Source: Streptomyces sp. cg36 (GTDB taxonomy: Bacteria > Actinomycetota > Actinomycetes > Streptomycetales > Streptomycetaceae). Taken from it: a stretch of 64,000 nt of DNA. Below are positions 17,270 to 56,450 of this stretch, piece by piece. The notes beneath the pieces are model-generated. The model ran no database searches. It worked only from the letters and a program-made list of their open reading frames with translations, and was not told where the DNA came from. Within the stretch, counting starts at the first letter, position 1; each line of letters starts with the position of its first letter. Made by a program: the position numbers and the translations under genes. The DNA is taken from the NCBI RefSeq assembly GCF_041080675.1, contig NZ_CP163520.1:8337501-8401500 (forward strand), given 5' to 3'.

Positions 17270-17575
17270 GTTGGACTGCGACCCACCCCGTACAGGCGTG
17301 AGCGGGACACAGACGGCCGCCTGGTCCTGGTCGCCGAGGAGTGCCCCCCGCCTCGATACGGTCGACGAGGTCATCGCGCTCACCGGCTTCCGCCCCGACC
17401 TGACCTTCCTCGACGAACTCGGTCTGAACCTTGACGAGCGCCTGCAGACACCGGTCGAACCGGCCCCGCTGATCGACTGCAACCTGCACTCCTGCGGCAC
17501 CGTCCACCGGGCACGGCCACCGCGAGCTGTCCCGCCCCGAACAGGGCGTCTACCCGGAGGAGGGGACCACAGCTC
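17270..17575 (+). pseudogene. Remnant of FAD-dependent oxidoreductase C-terminus
   Basis: Plus-strand pieces read TVDEVIALTGFRPDLTFLDE, PVEPAPLIDCNLHSCGTVH and, after a frameshift, GHRELSRPEQGVYPE. This order is the C-terminal part of flavoprotein monooxygenases/thioredoxin-reductase-like enzymes (ATG-like GFRPD motif). No N-terminal FAD or NADPH motifs remain between 17089 and 17270, so only a tail survives. Confidence 0.55.
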
Positions 17576-18488
17576 ACACGATCTGAATCTTCTGTCGCCC
17601 GTTCCGCACCGTGACGTGGTAGTCGGCGTCCACGTACCGCGGCCAAGGCCCGGTGACGGTGGGCCAGCCCAGCTCCTCGAACGACCGCTCGGCGCGCTGG
17701 CCGCGGACCTTCATGAAAGCGACGCCGGTGACGAGACGGCCGTCGCCGCCGCCCTGTCCGTCCGCGATCAGGCGGAGCAGGGCGTCGTGGCCGAAGGGCC
17801 CGTACAGCGGGGTGATGACGACCGCGCCGGGTGCGGCCTGGTCGAGCCATGCGCGGGGGACCTCGCGGACGGCGGCCGTGCAGATGATCCGTGTGTAGGG
17901 AGCACGATGCGGGTAACCCAGTTCTCCGTCGCCCGCCACTACGGCCGGCCGCAGCCCGAGGCCGGCGAGTGAGGCGCGCGCCCGATCAGCGAGCTCTGTG
18001 TCGATCTCCATGGTGACGATGTTCTCGGCGGGGACGCGCTGGGCCAGGAGGGCGGTGCTGTAGCCGGAGCCGGTGCCGATCTCCAGCACCTGGTCGGCGG
18101 GGTGGGGGTCGAGGTGGTGGAGCATGTCCACGACGGCGGCGGAGCAGGACACCGCGCTGGTGAACGGTGCGTCGGTGGGCCCGTCCTGCGGGCGCACCGC
18201 CCCGTCGGCGACCTGCGTGATCAGCGAAGTGCGCGGCCGGTAGACCCCCCGCAGCCAGGCCCGGGGCCGCTCCCGACGGTCGATCACATAGTGAAGGCCG
18301 TCGTCGCGGGGGTTGGGCCACCAGTACTGGTCGGGAACGAAGTGTTCACGGGGCACCGTCAGGAATGCCTCGCGCAGCCACGGCCGCCCGTTGAAGTGCC
18401 CCTCTGTACGGGCGTCGATCTCGGCGGCGCACTGCGCGCGCAGCTCGGCGGCGAACGCCGCGAGGTTGATCGCCGCGGTGTCAGTCAT
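17574..18488 (-). CDS. PIMT-like O-methyltransferase, candidate RiPP-modifying enzyme
   Basis: 304 residues. Related to protein-L-isoaspartate O-methyltransferases: FLTVPREHFVPDQYW, SLITQVADGA, the conserved TSAVSCSAAVVDMLHHL substrate/SAM entry region, motif I VLEIGTGSGYSTALLA, and PYTRIICTAAVREVPRAWL. Stand-alone members of this family methylate Asp side chains on small peptides, leading to aspartimide (imiditides) or act in ATP-grasp/FxLD systems. A 38-codon Asp-rich peptide ORF directly upstream overlaps its start by eight bases, suggesting translational coupling. ATG at 18488 chosen by that overlap and by the conserved N-terminus. General protein repair is the alternative function. Confidence 0.82.
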   Translation of the reverse strand: MTDTAAINLAAFAAELRAQCAAEIDARTEGHFNGRPWLREAFLTVPREHFVPDQYWWPNPRDDGLHYVIDRRERPRAWLRGVYRPRTSLITQVADGAVRPQDGPTDAPFTSAVSCSAAVVDMLHHLDPHPADQVLEIGTGSGYSTALLAQRVPAENIVTMEIDTELADRARASLAGLGLRPAVVAGDGELGYPHRAPYTRIICTAAVREVPRAWLDQAAPGAVVITPLYGPFGHDALLRLIADGQGGGDGRLVTGVAFMKVRGQRAERSFEELGWPTVTGPWPRYVDADYHVTVRNGRQKIQIV

Positions 18489-18597
18489 CTTCTGGCTCCG
18501 GGTCCGGCCCCTGCGGCGGCATCGGATTGCCCGGGTCGCCCGGACTCGACGAGTCCCCGCCCACCTGCCCGTCGCTGTCTCCACGACTGCCGCCCAT
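18481..18597 (-). CDS. Asp-rich 38-residue peptide, candidate RiPP precursor
   Basis: Too short for routine ORF calls. The frame starts ATG at 18597 with a strong GGGAGGG four to five bases upstream and stops at 18481, overlapping the methyltransferase start. The peptide (MGGSRGDSDGQVGGDSSSPG, then a Pro-rich tail ending PDPEPEDD) is hydrophilic, with Asp-Gly and Asp-Ser pairs and no Cys. Its gene order and coupling to a PIMT-like enzyme match the arrangement of imiditide-type precursors, but it could also be a simple leader peptide that couples translation. Confidence 0.5.
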   Translation of the reverse strand: MGGSRGDSDGQVGGDSSSPGDPGNPMPPQGPDPEPEDD

Positions 18598-18610
18598 GAC
18601 ACCCTCCCAT

Positions 18611-18630
18611 GATCAGATCAGATCAGATCG
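18611..18630. repeat. Tandem GATCA pentamer repeat, four copies
   Basis: Four head-to-tail copies (last one GATCG) lie in the divergent promoter region between the peptide/methyltransferase genes and the HEAT-repeat gene, 14 bases from the peptide ATG. May be a regulator site or simple slippage repeat. Confidence 0.6.
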
Positions 18631-28287: not shown

Positions 28288-28574
28288 ACGCGAGTGCCTT
28301 CAGATCGGACCACCTCGCAGCGTACGTGGCACGGTGCGCGGCGCGACGCCCTACGCTCCTGGCCTGAGTTGAGCCAGTGGGGGACTGGGCGGGACGCGCA
28401 CTTCGGACCGCGCGGAGGTTCCAGTCTCCAGTCCAGTGTGGCGTTCGAGGCCCTTCGAAGGCGCGATCGCGACCCCGCTGGGGTGCCCGGTACGGACGCT
28501 GTCTTCCGAGAGGATCGCGGGAGCGTCACTCTGAGCGCCGAGGCGAACAGCAGGGGGTAGGGATGCGCGGGCGG

Positions 28575-28811
28575 ATGGCGCCGTGGGGGTTGTCGAGGAT
28601 GAGGCCGTTCCCGGATGTCGTGACGCTGCCGGCAGCCGAGGTGCTTCTTGATCCAGAGCGGCAGACAGGCCGGTGGCTGGGCCCGGACGGGAGCGAGGTG
28701 CCGGTGGTGGACCGGCACAAGTGCTCGGAGACCTCGAAGGAGACGACCACCAAGACGAGCCTGGACGGCACCCCGGACCAGGGCAGTGACCAGGAAGGCG
28801 ACGCCGATTGA
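28575..28811 (+). CDS. Putative ATP-grasp-modified RiPP precursor (TgmA-like)
   Basis: 78 residues. N-terminal APWGLSRMRPFP matches the PWGLxRMxPFP leader motif of putative ATP-grasp-modified RiPPs, followed by LPAAEVLLDPERQTGRWLGP and VVDRHKCSETSKETTTKTSL, ending DGTPDQGSDQEGDAD. Thr/Ser-rich then Asp/Glu-rich segments are what an ATP-grasp ligase would join into omega-ester rings (graspetides). The stop overlaps the TTG start of the maturase gene. A second ATG four codons upstream (28563) is possible. The partner ligase is broken, so the peptide may be unmodified. Confidence 0.75.
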   Translation: MAPWGLSRMRPFPDVVTLPAAEVLLDPERQTGRWLGPDGSEVPVVDRHKCSETSKETTTKTSLDGTPDQGSDQEGDAD

Positions 28812-29349
28812 CCGCGGCGCGGCCCGTCGCGGTGGTCTCCCGGGTGGATGACGCGACCGCGGACTTGGTGATCGACGAGCTCAACCTGGCGCCGGGTGCC
28901 GGTGATCCGGCTCGATTCGGCCGACTTCCCCGACACCGTGAACGTCCGCGCCCGCCTGGACAGTCTGGGCCTGGCCGGGGTCCTGCAGACGGCAACCCGA
29001 ACCGCCGCCCTGGACCAGATCCGGGCGGGTGTACTGGCGGAGACCCCAGGCCTATGCCGTGTCCGAAGGCGTTCCGGAACCGCAGGCACGCTGGTGTGCC
29101 GAGGAAGCCCGCTATGGACTGGGCGGCATCCTGGCGTCACTGCCCGGCGCACACTACGTCAACCCCCCCTGGCGCAACCGCGATGCCGAGTACAAGCCGG
29201 CGCAGCTGGCGGCTGCTGCGGGATGCGGGTTCGACGTGCCGCCGACCCTGCTCACCAACGATCTCGCCGCGGTCCGCGCCTTCGTGCACGAGTGCAAGCG
29301 CGTCGTGTACAAGCCGCTGCGCAGCACGGACTACCGCGACGAGCGCTGA
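28808..29349 (+). pseudogene. ATP-grasp ribosomal peptide maturase (TgmB-like), frameshifted and truncated
   Basis: TTG at 28808 overlaps the precursor stop. Frame 1 gives VAVVSRVDDATADLVIDELN; an extra base near 28900 moves the reading to VPVIRLDSADFPDTVNVRAR and LQTATRTAALDQIRA; another extra G near 29025 moves it to VYWRRPQAYAVSEGVPEPQA, EARYGLGGILASLPGAHYVN, PPWRNRDAEYKPAQLAAAAG and VVYKPLRSTDYRDER stop. The C-terminal ATP-grasp catalytic lobe (about half of the usual 320-350 residues) is missing. Confidence 0.8.
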
Positions 29350-54142: not shown

Positions 54143-54319
54143 TCAGTGGTGCGGGGCCAGGAAGAGACGGGCTCGCTCGTCGGGTTCGGCGGCATACCGA
54201 AGCCCGCAGACCCGGCAGGGGCGCAGATCCCCGTGCACGCAAGGGACAGCCGCGAGGCGATGGACGACGGCGGGCAGGAGGGGCAGCCGCGAGCGCGGCC
54301 GGAGCAGGACAACGCTCAT
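54143..54319 (-). CDS. Possible small Cys-rich protein, doubtful
   Basis: 58 residues from ATG at 54319: MSVVLLRPRSRLPLLPAVVH then RLAAVPCVHGDLRPCRVCGL and a C-terminus LFLAPHH. C-x6-...-C-x2-C might bind metal. A plus-strand frame over the same bases (54140-54340) is equally open, so either could be real. Confidence 0.25.
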   Translation of the reverse strand: MSVVLLRPRSRLPLLPAVVHRLAAVPCVHGDLRPCRVCGLRYAAEPDERARLFLAPHH

Positions 54320-54386
54320 GCGGGGGCGCCAGCCAAGTAGCGCCAAAACCAGTCGGGTTGGGGGCGGCGGCGCCTACCCTCGTGTC

Positions 54387-55265
54387 ATGACGATCGCTCC
54401 GGAGGCCCCCACCACCCTGCGGTTCCTGTCGCTGGAGATCACCACCCGATGCCAGCTCACCTGTCCCTCGCACTGCTATGCCCAGGCCGGGCCGACACGC
54501 GGCCACGGGAGCATGACCGGGCAGGACTGGCACCGGCTCATCGACGAGGCCGTCGCGCTCGGCACGACGACGGTTCAGCTGATCGGCGGGGAGCCCACCC
54601 AGCATCCGGACTTCACCGCGCTCGTCGAGCACGCGCTCCAGGTCGGCCTGCGGGTGCGCGTCTACTCCAACCTCGTTCGGATACGCCAGGCGCACTGGCG
54701 GCTCTTCGAGCACCCCCGCCTCAGCCTCGCAACCTCCTACCACAGCGACGACCCCGACGAGCACGACATGATCACCGGGCTCCGCGGCTCCCACACGGCG
54801 ACCCGCGCCAACCTCGTTGAAGCCGTACGCCGTGGCATACCGGTCAAGGTCGCCATCGTCGACCTGGGCGGTGGCCAACGTGTGGAACAGGCCCGCGCCG
54901 AGATGCAGGCCCTCGGCGTCCATCAGATCCACGTCGACGCCGTCCGTGCCGTCGGCAACGCCGCGACCGTGCGCGCCGTGCTGCCCTCCACCTCGGCCCT
55001 GTGCGGGCGGTGCGGCGACAAGAAGGCGGCGATCCTCCCGGACGGAGACGTGTCCGTGTGCGAGATCGGGCGGTTCTTGACCGCGGGCAGCGTCAAGAGC
55101 GCGAGCCTGGCATCGGTCCTGGCCAGCGACCGCTGGACACAGATCGCCGCAAGCGTCCCGCGCCATACGAGCGCGGATCCCTGCCCACCGGACTGCGCAC
55201 CGAACGACGACTCCGCATGCGGCCCGGACAACCCCGGCCCCTGTGGCCCCGCGGACGACGAATGA
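54387..55265 (+). CDS. Radical SAM protein with unusual Cys spacing and SPASM-like tail
   Basis: 292 residues. The [4Fe-4S] motif reads EITTRCQLTCPSHCYAQAG, that is C-x3-C-x3-C instead of the usual C-x3-C-x2-C. Then SAM-binding VQLIGGEPTQHPDF (GGEP), VRVYSNLVRI, ATSYHSDDPDEHDMITGL, and a C-terminal Cys cluster (LCGRCGDKKAAILPDGDVSV CEIG, CPPDC, CGP, CGP) resembling SPASM/twitch auxiliary clusters of peptide-modifying enzymes. The next gene, 39 bases on, is a PIMT-like methyltransferase, so a shared peptide substrate is likely. ATG at 54387; weak RBS, perhaps leaderless. Confidence 0.85.
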   Translation: MTIAPEAPTTLRFLSLEITTRCQLTCPSHCYAQAGPTRGHGSMTGQDWHRLIDEAVALGTTTVQLIGGEPTQHPDFTALVEHALQVGLRVRVYSNLVRIRQAHWRLFEHPRLSLATSYHSDDPDEHDMITGLRGSHTATRANLVEAVRRGIPVKVAIVDLGGGQRVEQARAEMQALGVHQIHVDAVRAVGNAATVRAVLPSTSALCGRCGDKKAAILPDGDVSVCEIGRFLTAGSVKSASLASVLASDRWTQIAASVPRHTSADPCPPDCAPNDDSACGPDNPGPCGPADDE

Positions 55266-55304
55266 CACCCACCCAGGACACCAGAGCACGAGGAGCGCAA
55301 CAGC

Positions 55305-56450
55305 ATGGATGCGGACTGGGAAGGGCATGCGCGCCGTCTGGCCGACGCCGTGGTGCGGCCGGAGTCGCGATGGTGGAAACCGATCGCCTCCACCCCACGC
55401 CACCTCCTCGTGCCACGCTGGTGGGAAAGGGGCCCCCGAGGCCGGACGGTCCGCGACGGAACCACAGACACCGACACGTGGCACAAAGCCGCCTACGCCG
55501 ACGACACACTGGTGACCCGCATCGGGCCCCTGCACGCCGACCACGCCGAGCCCGGCCAGGCCGCCCCGCCCGGCACACGCCCGACGTCCTCCTCAACCCT
55601 GCCGACCCTGATCGTGACCATGTACCGGTACGCCGTCCTCGCCGACGGCTGCGCCACGCTCGTGACGACCGGCACCGGATACGGGACCGCCCTGGCCTGC
55701 CACCGCCTCGGCGACCAGCTGGTGACAAGCGTCGACATCGACGACTACCTCGTCGAGGCCGCAACCGACCGGCTGAGCACGACCGGCCTGCACCCGCACA
55801 CCGCCACCTGCGACCTGACCCAGGACCTTCCCGGCCAGTTCGACCGCATCGTGTCCACCGTGGCGGTACGGCCCATCCCCGTCTCCTGGCTGCACGCACT
55901 GCGCCCTGGCGGGCGGCTGGTCACCACCATCGCCGGCACCAGGCTGATCCTCGTCGCCGACAAGACGCCGGACGGCGGCGCGCGGGGATTCATCGCCCCC
56001 AACGGGGCCTCGTTCATGGCCGCCCGCCACGGCCTGGACTACGACGACACCGCCCCTGGATCCCAGGTGTGGGAAGCGGCCGACGGCGTGGGCGAGTCGG
56101 TGTCCACCAGCCGCTACCCGCTGCTGTACGTGCCGGACTCCTGGGCGGTGTGGTCGATGCTGGACCTCTCGATGCCCGGCATCGAGCACCACAGCCAGCG
56201 AGGGGACGGCGGCGGGCGCACGATCAAGATGGTGCACCTGGACGGCTCCTGGGCCCGAGCCCACGCCGAGGGCCCTCGCCAGTCACCGACCGTGCACCAG
56301 GGCGGTCCCCGCCGACTGTGGGACGCGCTGGAGGACATCCGCGACCGCCTCAACACCTGGGGCGAACTGCCCGTGTACGGCTCGAAGGTCACCATCACCC
56401 CGGACGGCGAGACCACCCTCTCCCGGGGCCGGTGGACCGCCACCCTGTAG
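55305..56450 (+). CDS. PIMT-like methyltransferase partnered with radical SAM
   Basis: 381 residues. Conserved IASTPRHLLVPRWWERGPRG, the TTGTGYGTALACHRLG motif I (V-T-T-G-T-G-Y-G-T), SVDIDDYLVEAATDRLSTTG, DRIVSTVAVRPIPVSWLHAL and RPGGRLVTTIAGT. The C-terminal 150 residues (YVPDSWAVWSMLDLSMPGIE, TLSRGRWTATL) are typical of the methyltransferases of ATP-grasp/RiPP maturation systems rather than repair PIMTs. Operon with the radical SAM gene; GAGGAG nine bases before the ATG. It could act on the orphan TgmA-like peptide 26 kb away or on an unseen substrate. Confidence 0.85.
   Translation: MDADWEGHARRLADAVVRPESRWWKPIASTPRHLLVPRWWERGPRGRTVRDGTTDTDTWHKAAYADDTLVTRIGPLHADHAEPGQAAPPGTRPTSSSTLPTLIVTMYRYAVLADGCATLVTTGTGYGTALACHRLGDQLVTSVDIDDYLVEAATDRLSTTGLHPHTATCDLTQDLPGQFDRIVSTVAVRPIPVSWLHALRPGGRLVTTIAGTRLILVADKTPDGGARGFIAPNGASFMAARHGLDYDDTAPGSQVWEAADGVGESVSTSRYPLLYVPDSWAVWSMLDLSMPGIEHHSQRGDGGGRTIKMVHLDGSWARAHAEGPRQSPTVHQGGPRRLWDALEDIRDRLNTWGELPVYGSKVTITPDGETTLSRGRWTATL

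Follow-up and report, generated by a model that had tools for sequence, protein, structure and literature searches.

An acidic 38-residue peptide and a C-terminally reduced PIMT-like methyltransferase form a probable imiditide-like pair in Streptomyces sp. cg36

Imiditides are described as a class of RiPPs that carry no modification other than aspartimide. The aspartimide forms through the backbone NH of the following residue, which is lacking in Pro, and two residues, Asp and Asn, lead to one and the same aspartimide. For SpaA/SpaM and NmaA/NmaM, methylation of Asp leading to aspartimide is described in the portions of PMC10787088 and PMC13001092 on which we draw here. A length of about 45 residues is given for type I precursors, together with a composition of 17.3% Gly, 10.2% Asp, and 16.8% Pro (PMC10787088, in part), and a 2026 review words imiditide precursors as Lys-rich and positively charged (PMC13001092, in part). 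An extra C-terminal domain is typical of RiPP-linked PIMTs (PMC10787088 and PMC13001092, in part), and in the portion of the review used here (PMC13001092), all of them carry it. Enzymes shorter than 300 residues were removed from the survey in PMC10787088, and 1,414 type I pamtides are counted in PMC13001092 (both in part).

The stretch of DNA analyzed here, referred to as the window, comprises 64,000 nucleotides of contig NZ_CP163520.1 of Streptomyces sp. cg36. A 38-codon ORF at 18597..18481 on the minus strand encodes an acidic, Gly/Pro/Asp-rich, precursor-like peptide, MGGSRGDSDGQVGGDSSSPGDPGNPMPPQGPDPEPEDD, and a methyltransferase ORF at 18488..17574 (−) begins within the final codons of the peptide. 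A sequence-only reading had taken the two genes for a possible stand-alone imiditide-type system, and its description of the gene starts was borne out. The strong ribosome-binding site GGGAGGG is present at 18608–18602 (−), 4 bases 5′ of the peptide ATG, and the eight bases common to the peptide stop and the methyltransferase start, 18481–18488 (−), read ATGACTGA, an overlap that may couple the translation of the two genes. A tandem GATC-type repeat, GATCAGATCAGATCAGATC, is located at 18611–18629, just 5′ of this ribosome-binding site, and a promoter scan found nothing. Next to the pair are a SARP-type regulator gene in convergent and a HEAT-repeat gene in divergent orientation, and the 8.6-Mb contig, from a genome of 9.0 Mb, ends about 240 kb away. 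The peptide had also been called unusually short, which does not hold, and too short for standard gene calling, which does not hold everywhere. Its relatives have 36–66 residues (48 distinct peptides, with starts as given or set in this analysis), compared with the 45 or so of type I precursors (PMC10787088, in part), and a ‘hypothetical protein’ is annotated at the same place in five related loci, L101, L102, L103, L105, and L106. The gene is absent from the listed annotation of L100, in which the gene table is incomplete, and the record for L104 has no annotation of any kind.

A profile built from 16 peptides was run on 392 Streptomyces genomes, with 19 first-look candidates scored per genome. 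There were 11 matches at E ≤ 1.5e-12, and all 11 are directly upstream of a homologous methyltransferase. The 12th match, at E 1.6e-7, has a degraded peptide next to a methyltransferase that is broken across two frames, and its sequence is the one found at locus L059 of Streptomyces eurocidicus; the remaining matches have E ≥ 5.9e-4. The methyltransferase was found at E ≤ 1e-70 in at least 9 of the 392 genomes and at least 14 places, which are lower bounds because five candidates were scored per genome. Upstream of these 14 places there is a peptide of the window kind, here called type 1, in 10 cases and a second kind, type 2, in four. A set of 26 distinct related loci consists of the retrieved loci whose enzyme is at least 48% identical to that of the window, with S. 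rimosus H3 left out; L099, a terminal-repeat copy of L098, L102, which shares its plasmid with L097, and loci retrieved twice were not counted again. Type 1 peptides are found in 19 of these loci and type 2 peptides in four; in the other three, the peptide is degraded (L059), is missing along with the first part of the methyltransferase (L022), or is not of this kind (L013). No such peptide was seen at four longer relatives, L143, L144, L145, and L147, with frames of 376–429 residues and scores of 250–262 bits.

In the source genome, 15 PIMT/PAMT-like sequences match the methyltransferase. The best four of the 15 belong to the short subfamily, each with a different short peptide upstream, type 1 at three places and type 2 at one. 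The pair is located near the chromosome ends in this genome and in a second one, G300, and also on plasmids. A genus sample around G300, in which the same genomes were drawn, gave no further place. A tblastn search of plasmids with the peptide gave no match although L100 and L103–L106 hold it, so this search was too insensitive.

In the 24-codon core of the peptide gene, eight disjoint pairs, in which no locus is used twice and two pairs share a branch, show 25, 21, and 86 differences at codon positions 1, 2, and 3, and the pooled pN/pS is 0.24. The peptide ORF is a genuine and conserved gene, with a core under protein-level selection. The sequence-only reading had staked its claim on conservation of the short ORF beside methyltransferase homologues, and the ORF is kept upstream of close and distant homologues. 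In S. eurocidicus (L059/L115), the degraded peptide core and the two-frame methyltransferase occur in one locus, as if the pair were decaying together, or possibly by sequencing error.

Which Asp of the peptide would be modified? Fifty type 1 peptides, 48 of them distinct, were lined up on the motif, excluding those of L059/L115 as degraded; the 48 include near-copies and have 33 distinct 24-residue cores. Their composition is 18.5% Gly, 16.8% Asp, and 15.8% Pro, with 0.5% Lys, and the net charge has a median of −8 and a range of −14 to −5. The peptide has Asp next to Gly, Ser, and Pro, as had been noted, with S-D-G, G-D-S, and G-D-P each present in MGGSRGDSDGQVGGDSSSPGDPGNPMPPQGPDPEPEDD, but the three contexts are not equivalent. 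The Asp of S-D-G, Asp9 (Asp9-Gly10 codons at 18568..18573, −), is kept in 37 of the 48 distinct peptides and replaced by Asn in the other 11, and Gly is next in all 48; among the 33 distinct cores, there are 24 with Asp and 9 with Asn. The Asp of G-D-S is not conserved, being Pro in 33 of 48, and the residues of the tail show no position-by-position conservation. The Asp of G-D-P, Asp21 (Asp21-Pro22 codons at 18532..18537, −), is part of the conserved SSPGDPGNP motif, with Asp in 44, Glu in 2, and Gln in 2 peptides, followed by Pro in 46 and Ala in 2. Since this other conserved Asp precedes Pro, and aspartimide formation needs the NH of the next residue, Asp9 is the best candidate for the modified residue, judging from the alignment. 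Asp21 should not form an imide because of the Pro next to it, before which the n+1 amide proton is lost (PMC13001092, in part), and since 4 of the 48 peptides have Glu or Gln there, we reject it as the modified residue; we propose instead that Asp21-Pro22 is a recognition or turn motif. On a tree of 19 paired loci, the Asp9 position switched between Asp and Asn twice, and this variation does not represent many independent events. The type 2 peptides (8 distinct) keep [R/K]-T-N-G and a second N-G in all eight, and the Asp of EEGD in six. A longer relative, L014, has RQSNGQV within its peptide. Spontaneous isoAsp has been reported at an Asn of the RiPP precursor SsfA (PMC10787088, in part).

The second gene (17574..18488, −) encodes a 304-residue PIMT-like O-methyltransferase (PF01135), as seen from Pfam, NCBIfam, structure matches, and an AlphaFold model. 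The Pfam PCMT match (E 8.6e-29) starts at residue 111 and profile position 57, and the top NCBIfam model, TIGR04188 for graspetide methyltransferases, scores 214 bits, under its cut-off of 380. The AlphaFold model has a mean pLDDT of 91.2, and its best fold matches are the PIMT structures 4o29, 1jg1, 3lbf, and 2yxe, with 1dl5 in seventh place. The window enzyme is shown here to keep the PIMT fold and the SAM motif, and it has FTSxxSC, presumably where repair PIMTs carry their own motif. It shares the fold and SAM-binding core with repair PIMTs such as E. coli Pcm and T. maritima 1DL5 but differs from them in a longer N-terminal part and a fixed peptide partner.

The subfamily enzymes have 285–310 residues in the loci examined (at least 300 in 24 of the 40 members measured). 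Codons 257–289 (17622..17720, −) form coil in the window enzyme, at a position where, according to the model and the profiles, about 100 residues of C-terminal domain are present in the longer relatives, and a last hairpin follows at codons 290–303. The model of the longer L014 enzyme (402 residues, mean pLDDT 88.3) has strands and helices where the window enzyme is coil, with four helices of at least 4 residues and five strands in residues 255–355. When the profile of 41 subfamily members was compared with that of 19 longer, RiPP-type PIMT relatives (356–419 residues), 253 columns aligned (E 3.4e-79), past which about 107 template columns have no counterpart in the subfamily, and the last 21 columns realigned weakly (E 0.009, or 3.4e-4 with the C-terminal parts alone). 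The tree splits 23 subfamily enzymes from 10 longer ones with a support of 100/100 and a branch of 0.8. The subfamily enzymes are a clade of their own, and most of the C-terminal domain of the RiPP-linked PIMTs is absent from them. The C-terminal domain that marks RiPP-associated PIMTs (PAMTs), with more than 100 residues and a WXXXGXP motif, is largely missing from the window enzyme. There is an FEELGWP in the coil region, which differs from WXXXGXP as written, and we rejected [F/Y/W]xxLGWP as this motif; it remains a resemblance, because hhalign leaves it unaligned and the model shows coil.

The charges of the two partners were compared in 14 long-enzyme loci, hand-picked from 74 listed and including one of the cysimiditide type (L077), and in 22 of 23 short-enzyme loci, L011 being omitted because its GTG start was missed. 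The mean charges for the long-enzyme loci are −0.4 for the peptide, −16.8 for the enzyme, and −6.6 for the region after the conserved FM, compared with −8.3, −3.0, and +2.0, respectively, for the short-enzyme loci. The charge is reversed in the subfamily, which has an acidic peptide and a less acidic enzyme. For all 36 loci, the charges of the peptide and the C-terminal region are correlated with rho −0.76, in rows that are related and hence not independent. When the long set was enlarged to n = 17 with L021, L025, and L045, excluding L034, in which the enzyme runs off the contig, rho was −0.66 (p 0.004) for tail and enzyme charge, −0.51 (p 0.03) for peptide and enzyme, and −0.46 (p 0.06) for peptide and C-terminal region. 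Among the long-enzyme loci, three (L015, L045, and L048) have acidic peptides, and their enzymes, with charges of −9, −9, and −6, are the least acidic. There is no charge trend within the short-enzyme loci (p 0.77 and 0.28). These data agree with the electrostatic model printed in PMC13001092 (in part) and do not prove it. That model concerns how imiditide enzymes pick one Asp in a linear peptide, and a natural enzyme that lacks most of the domain proposed for recognition, together with a charge-reversed substrate, would be a direct test of it.

How does the pair compare with the imiditides and type I pamtides? As in NmaA–NmaM and SpaA–SpaM, there are two genes, a short Gly/Pro/Asp-rich peptide and a PIMT homologue after it, and no primary RiPP enzyme, TgmB, LanB, and LanC having been searched for. 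The conserved Asp(-Gly) next to Gly/Pro and the charged C-terminal tail are also alike, as is the peptide length. The Lys-rich, positive character of imiditide precursors is replaced by an acidic one, the site may be Asp or Asn, the SSPGDPGNP motif is fixed, and the enzyme belongs to the shorter clade. We put the probability at about 0.7 that we have here a minimal RiPP-type gene pair of the imiditide/type I pamtide kind, with the predicted activity. The imiditide-type reading has kept its PIMT homologue, its short Gly/Pro/Asp-rich precursor, and the lack of another RiPP enzyme beside the pair. Counting against it are the largely missing C-terminal domain and absent positive charge, the repair PIMTs as best structural matches, the enzyme without a recognizable peptide in L013, the lack of an Asp common to all 8 distinct type 2 peptides, the lack of a protease or exporter common to the neighborhoods, and the need for prior deamidation in 11 of 48 peptides, because Asn is not directly methylatable. 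Formal membership in the imiditides is tentative, because most of the C-terminal domain is lacking and the product is predicted. The pair would most likely be a trimmed, charge-reversed branch of this recently described class of modified peptides. Such pairs form a distinct subgroup of imiditide/type I pamtide-like pairs, set apart by the reduced enzyme, the acidic peptide, and a site that may be Asp or Asn. The subgroup is not described in the portions of PMC10787088 and PMC13001092 used here; published supplementary lists may already include members, and those with enzymes of at least 300 residues may be among the 1,414 type I pamtides.

We infer that the pair works like an imiditide pair, and the same applies to the modification, the site, and the function. 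The enzyme would methylate the side-chain carboxyl of Asp9, or of isoAsp formed there, and the ester would collapse to the aspartimide by reaction with the Gly10 backbone NH. This would be hydrolyzed mostly to isoAsp, which could be methylated again. The relatives with Asn-Gly would enter this cycle by spontaneous deamidation, which passes through the same aspartimide. Docking on the enzyme, which has lost most of the C-terminal domain and much negative charge, may be mediated by the acidic tail together with the PGDPGNP motif. The modified peptide might be a secreted or intracellular signal or antagonist of the strains with these genes on their chromosome arms and plasmids, which is a guess. 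More tentatively, and with rather less than an even chance, this may be an imiditide-like branch that encodes either Asp or Asn, in which Asn-Gly deamidation and Asp methylation converge on one aspartimide and a PAMT without the C-terminal recognition domain reads an acidic tail by reversed charge. The Asp/Asn interchange indicates the likely modified residue from sequence alone and suggests a possible use of spontaneous deamidation.

The methyltransferase could act on the peptide elsewhere or leave a lasting ester, for instance at the C terminus or on one of the carboxyls of the tail, or it could repair isoAsp and not make it. The peptide offers many further carboxylates, the closest structural relatives of the enzyme are repair enzymes, and the Asn-Gly found in 11 of 48 type 1 and 8 of 8 distinct type 2 peptides yields isoAsp without an enzyme. 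However, it is the D/N-G pair that is conserved and not the tail positions, and the printed relatives methylate Asp to give aspartimide (PMC10787088 and PMC13001092, in part), so we consider this explanation unlikely. An Asp/Asn choice at the site, as expected for imide chemistry, also argues against the view that the peptide regulates, inhibits, or docks to the methyltransferase and that the true substrate is another protein, and so do the precursors of two-gene systems of the same architecture, which are substrates (PMC10787088 and PMC13001092, in part). Such a role would accommodate the strict pairing, the acidic peptide with a less acidic enzyme, and the neighborhoods that have no processing or export genes in common, and we regard it as quite improbable. 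The linkage to the methyltransferase in 11 of 11 cases and the amino-acid conservation with third-position change already contradict the view that the short ORF is a leader with a regulatory role, or arose by chance next to a normal repair PIMT, and the separate clade of the enzymes also speaks against it. The translational overlap and the repair PIMTs as best solved relatives would fit it, and we give it hardly any weight.

The imiditide-like reading was also set against other RiPP systems. The group 13 graspetide methyltransferases (TIGR04188/tgmC) belong to the same enzyme superfamily and give the best NCBIfam model, but an ATP-grasp ligase gene and a graspetide precursor are absent at the pair and in the 22 related loci. 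No match to TgmB, LanB, or LanC was found in these 22 loci, and a graspetide or lanthipeptide cluster was rejected. Type II pamtides and cysimiditides likewise combine a stand-alone PIMT homologue and a short peptide encoded upstream of it, and they differ in the cysteines of a CxxCxGxG-D-CxxCxGxG zinc ribbon; the window peptide has no Cys, and 4 of 50 relatives have a single one. In a scan of about 8 kb per side for ORFs of at least 90 residues with third-position GC of at least 0.8, no ORF family other than the methyltransferase and ORFs antisense to it occurs in more than 3 of 23 neighborhoods, and a conserved protease, transporter, or regulator partner was rejected.

The window holds a graspetide remnant at 28377–29349 (+), about 10 kb from the pair. 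An ORF ending ..TKTSLDGTPDQGSDQEGDAD, which by eye we take to be a graspetide precursor, is followed by ATP-grasp (tgmB-like) sequence spread over three frames at 28820–29337 (+), in pieces 50–59% identical to TgmB of Streptomyces sp. NBC_01455. A second region, 54318–56450 (+), resembles the rSAM–PAMT two-gene clusters without known precursor (PMC10787088, in part). It has an ORF at 54318–55265 (+) that by eye resembles a radical SAM protein, and just after it a PIMT-like ORF at 55305–56450 (+) with 29% identity to the window methyltransferase.
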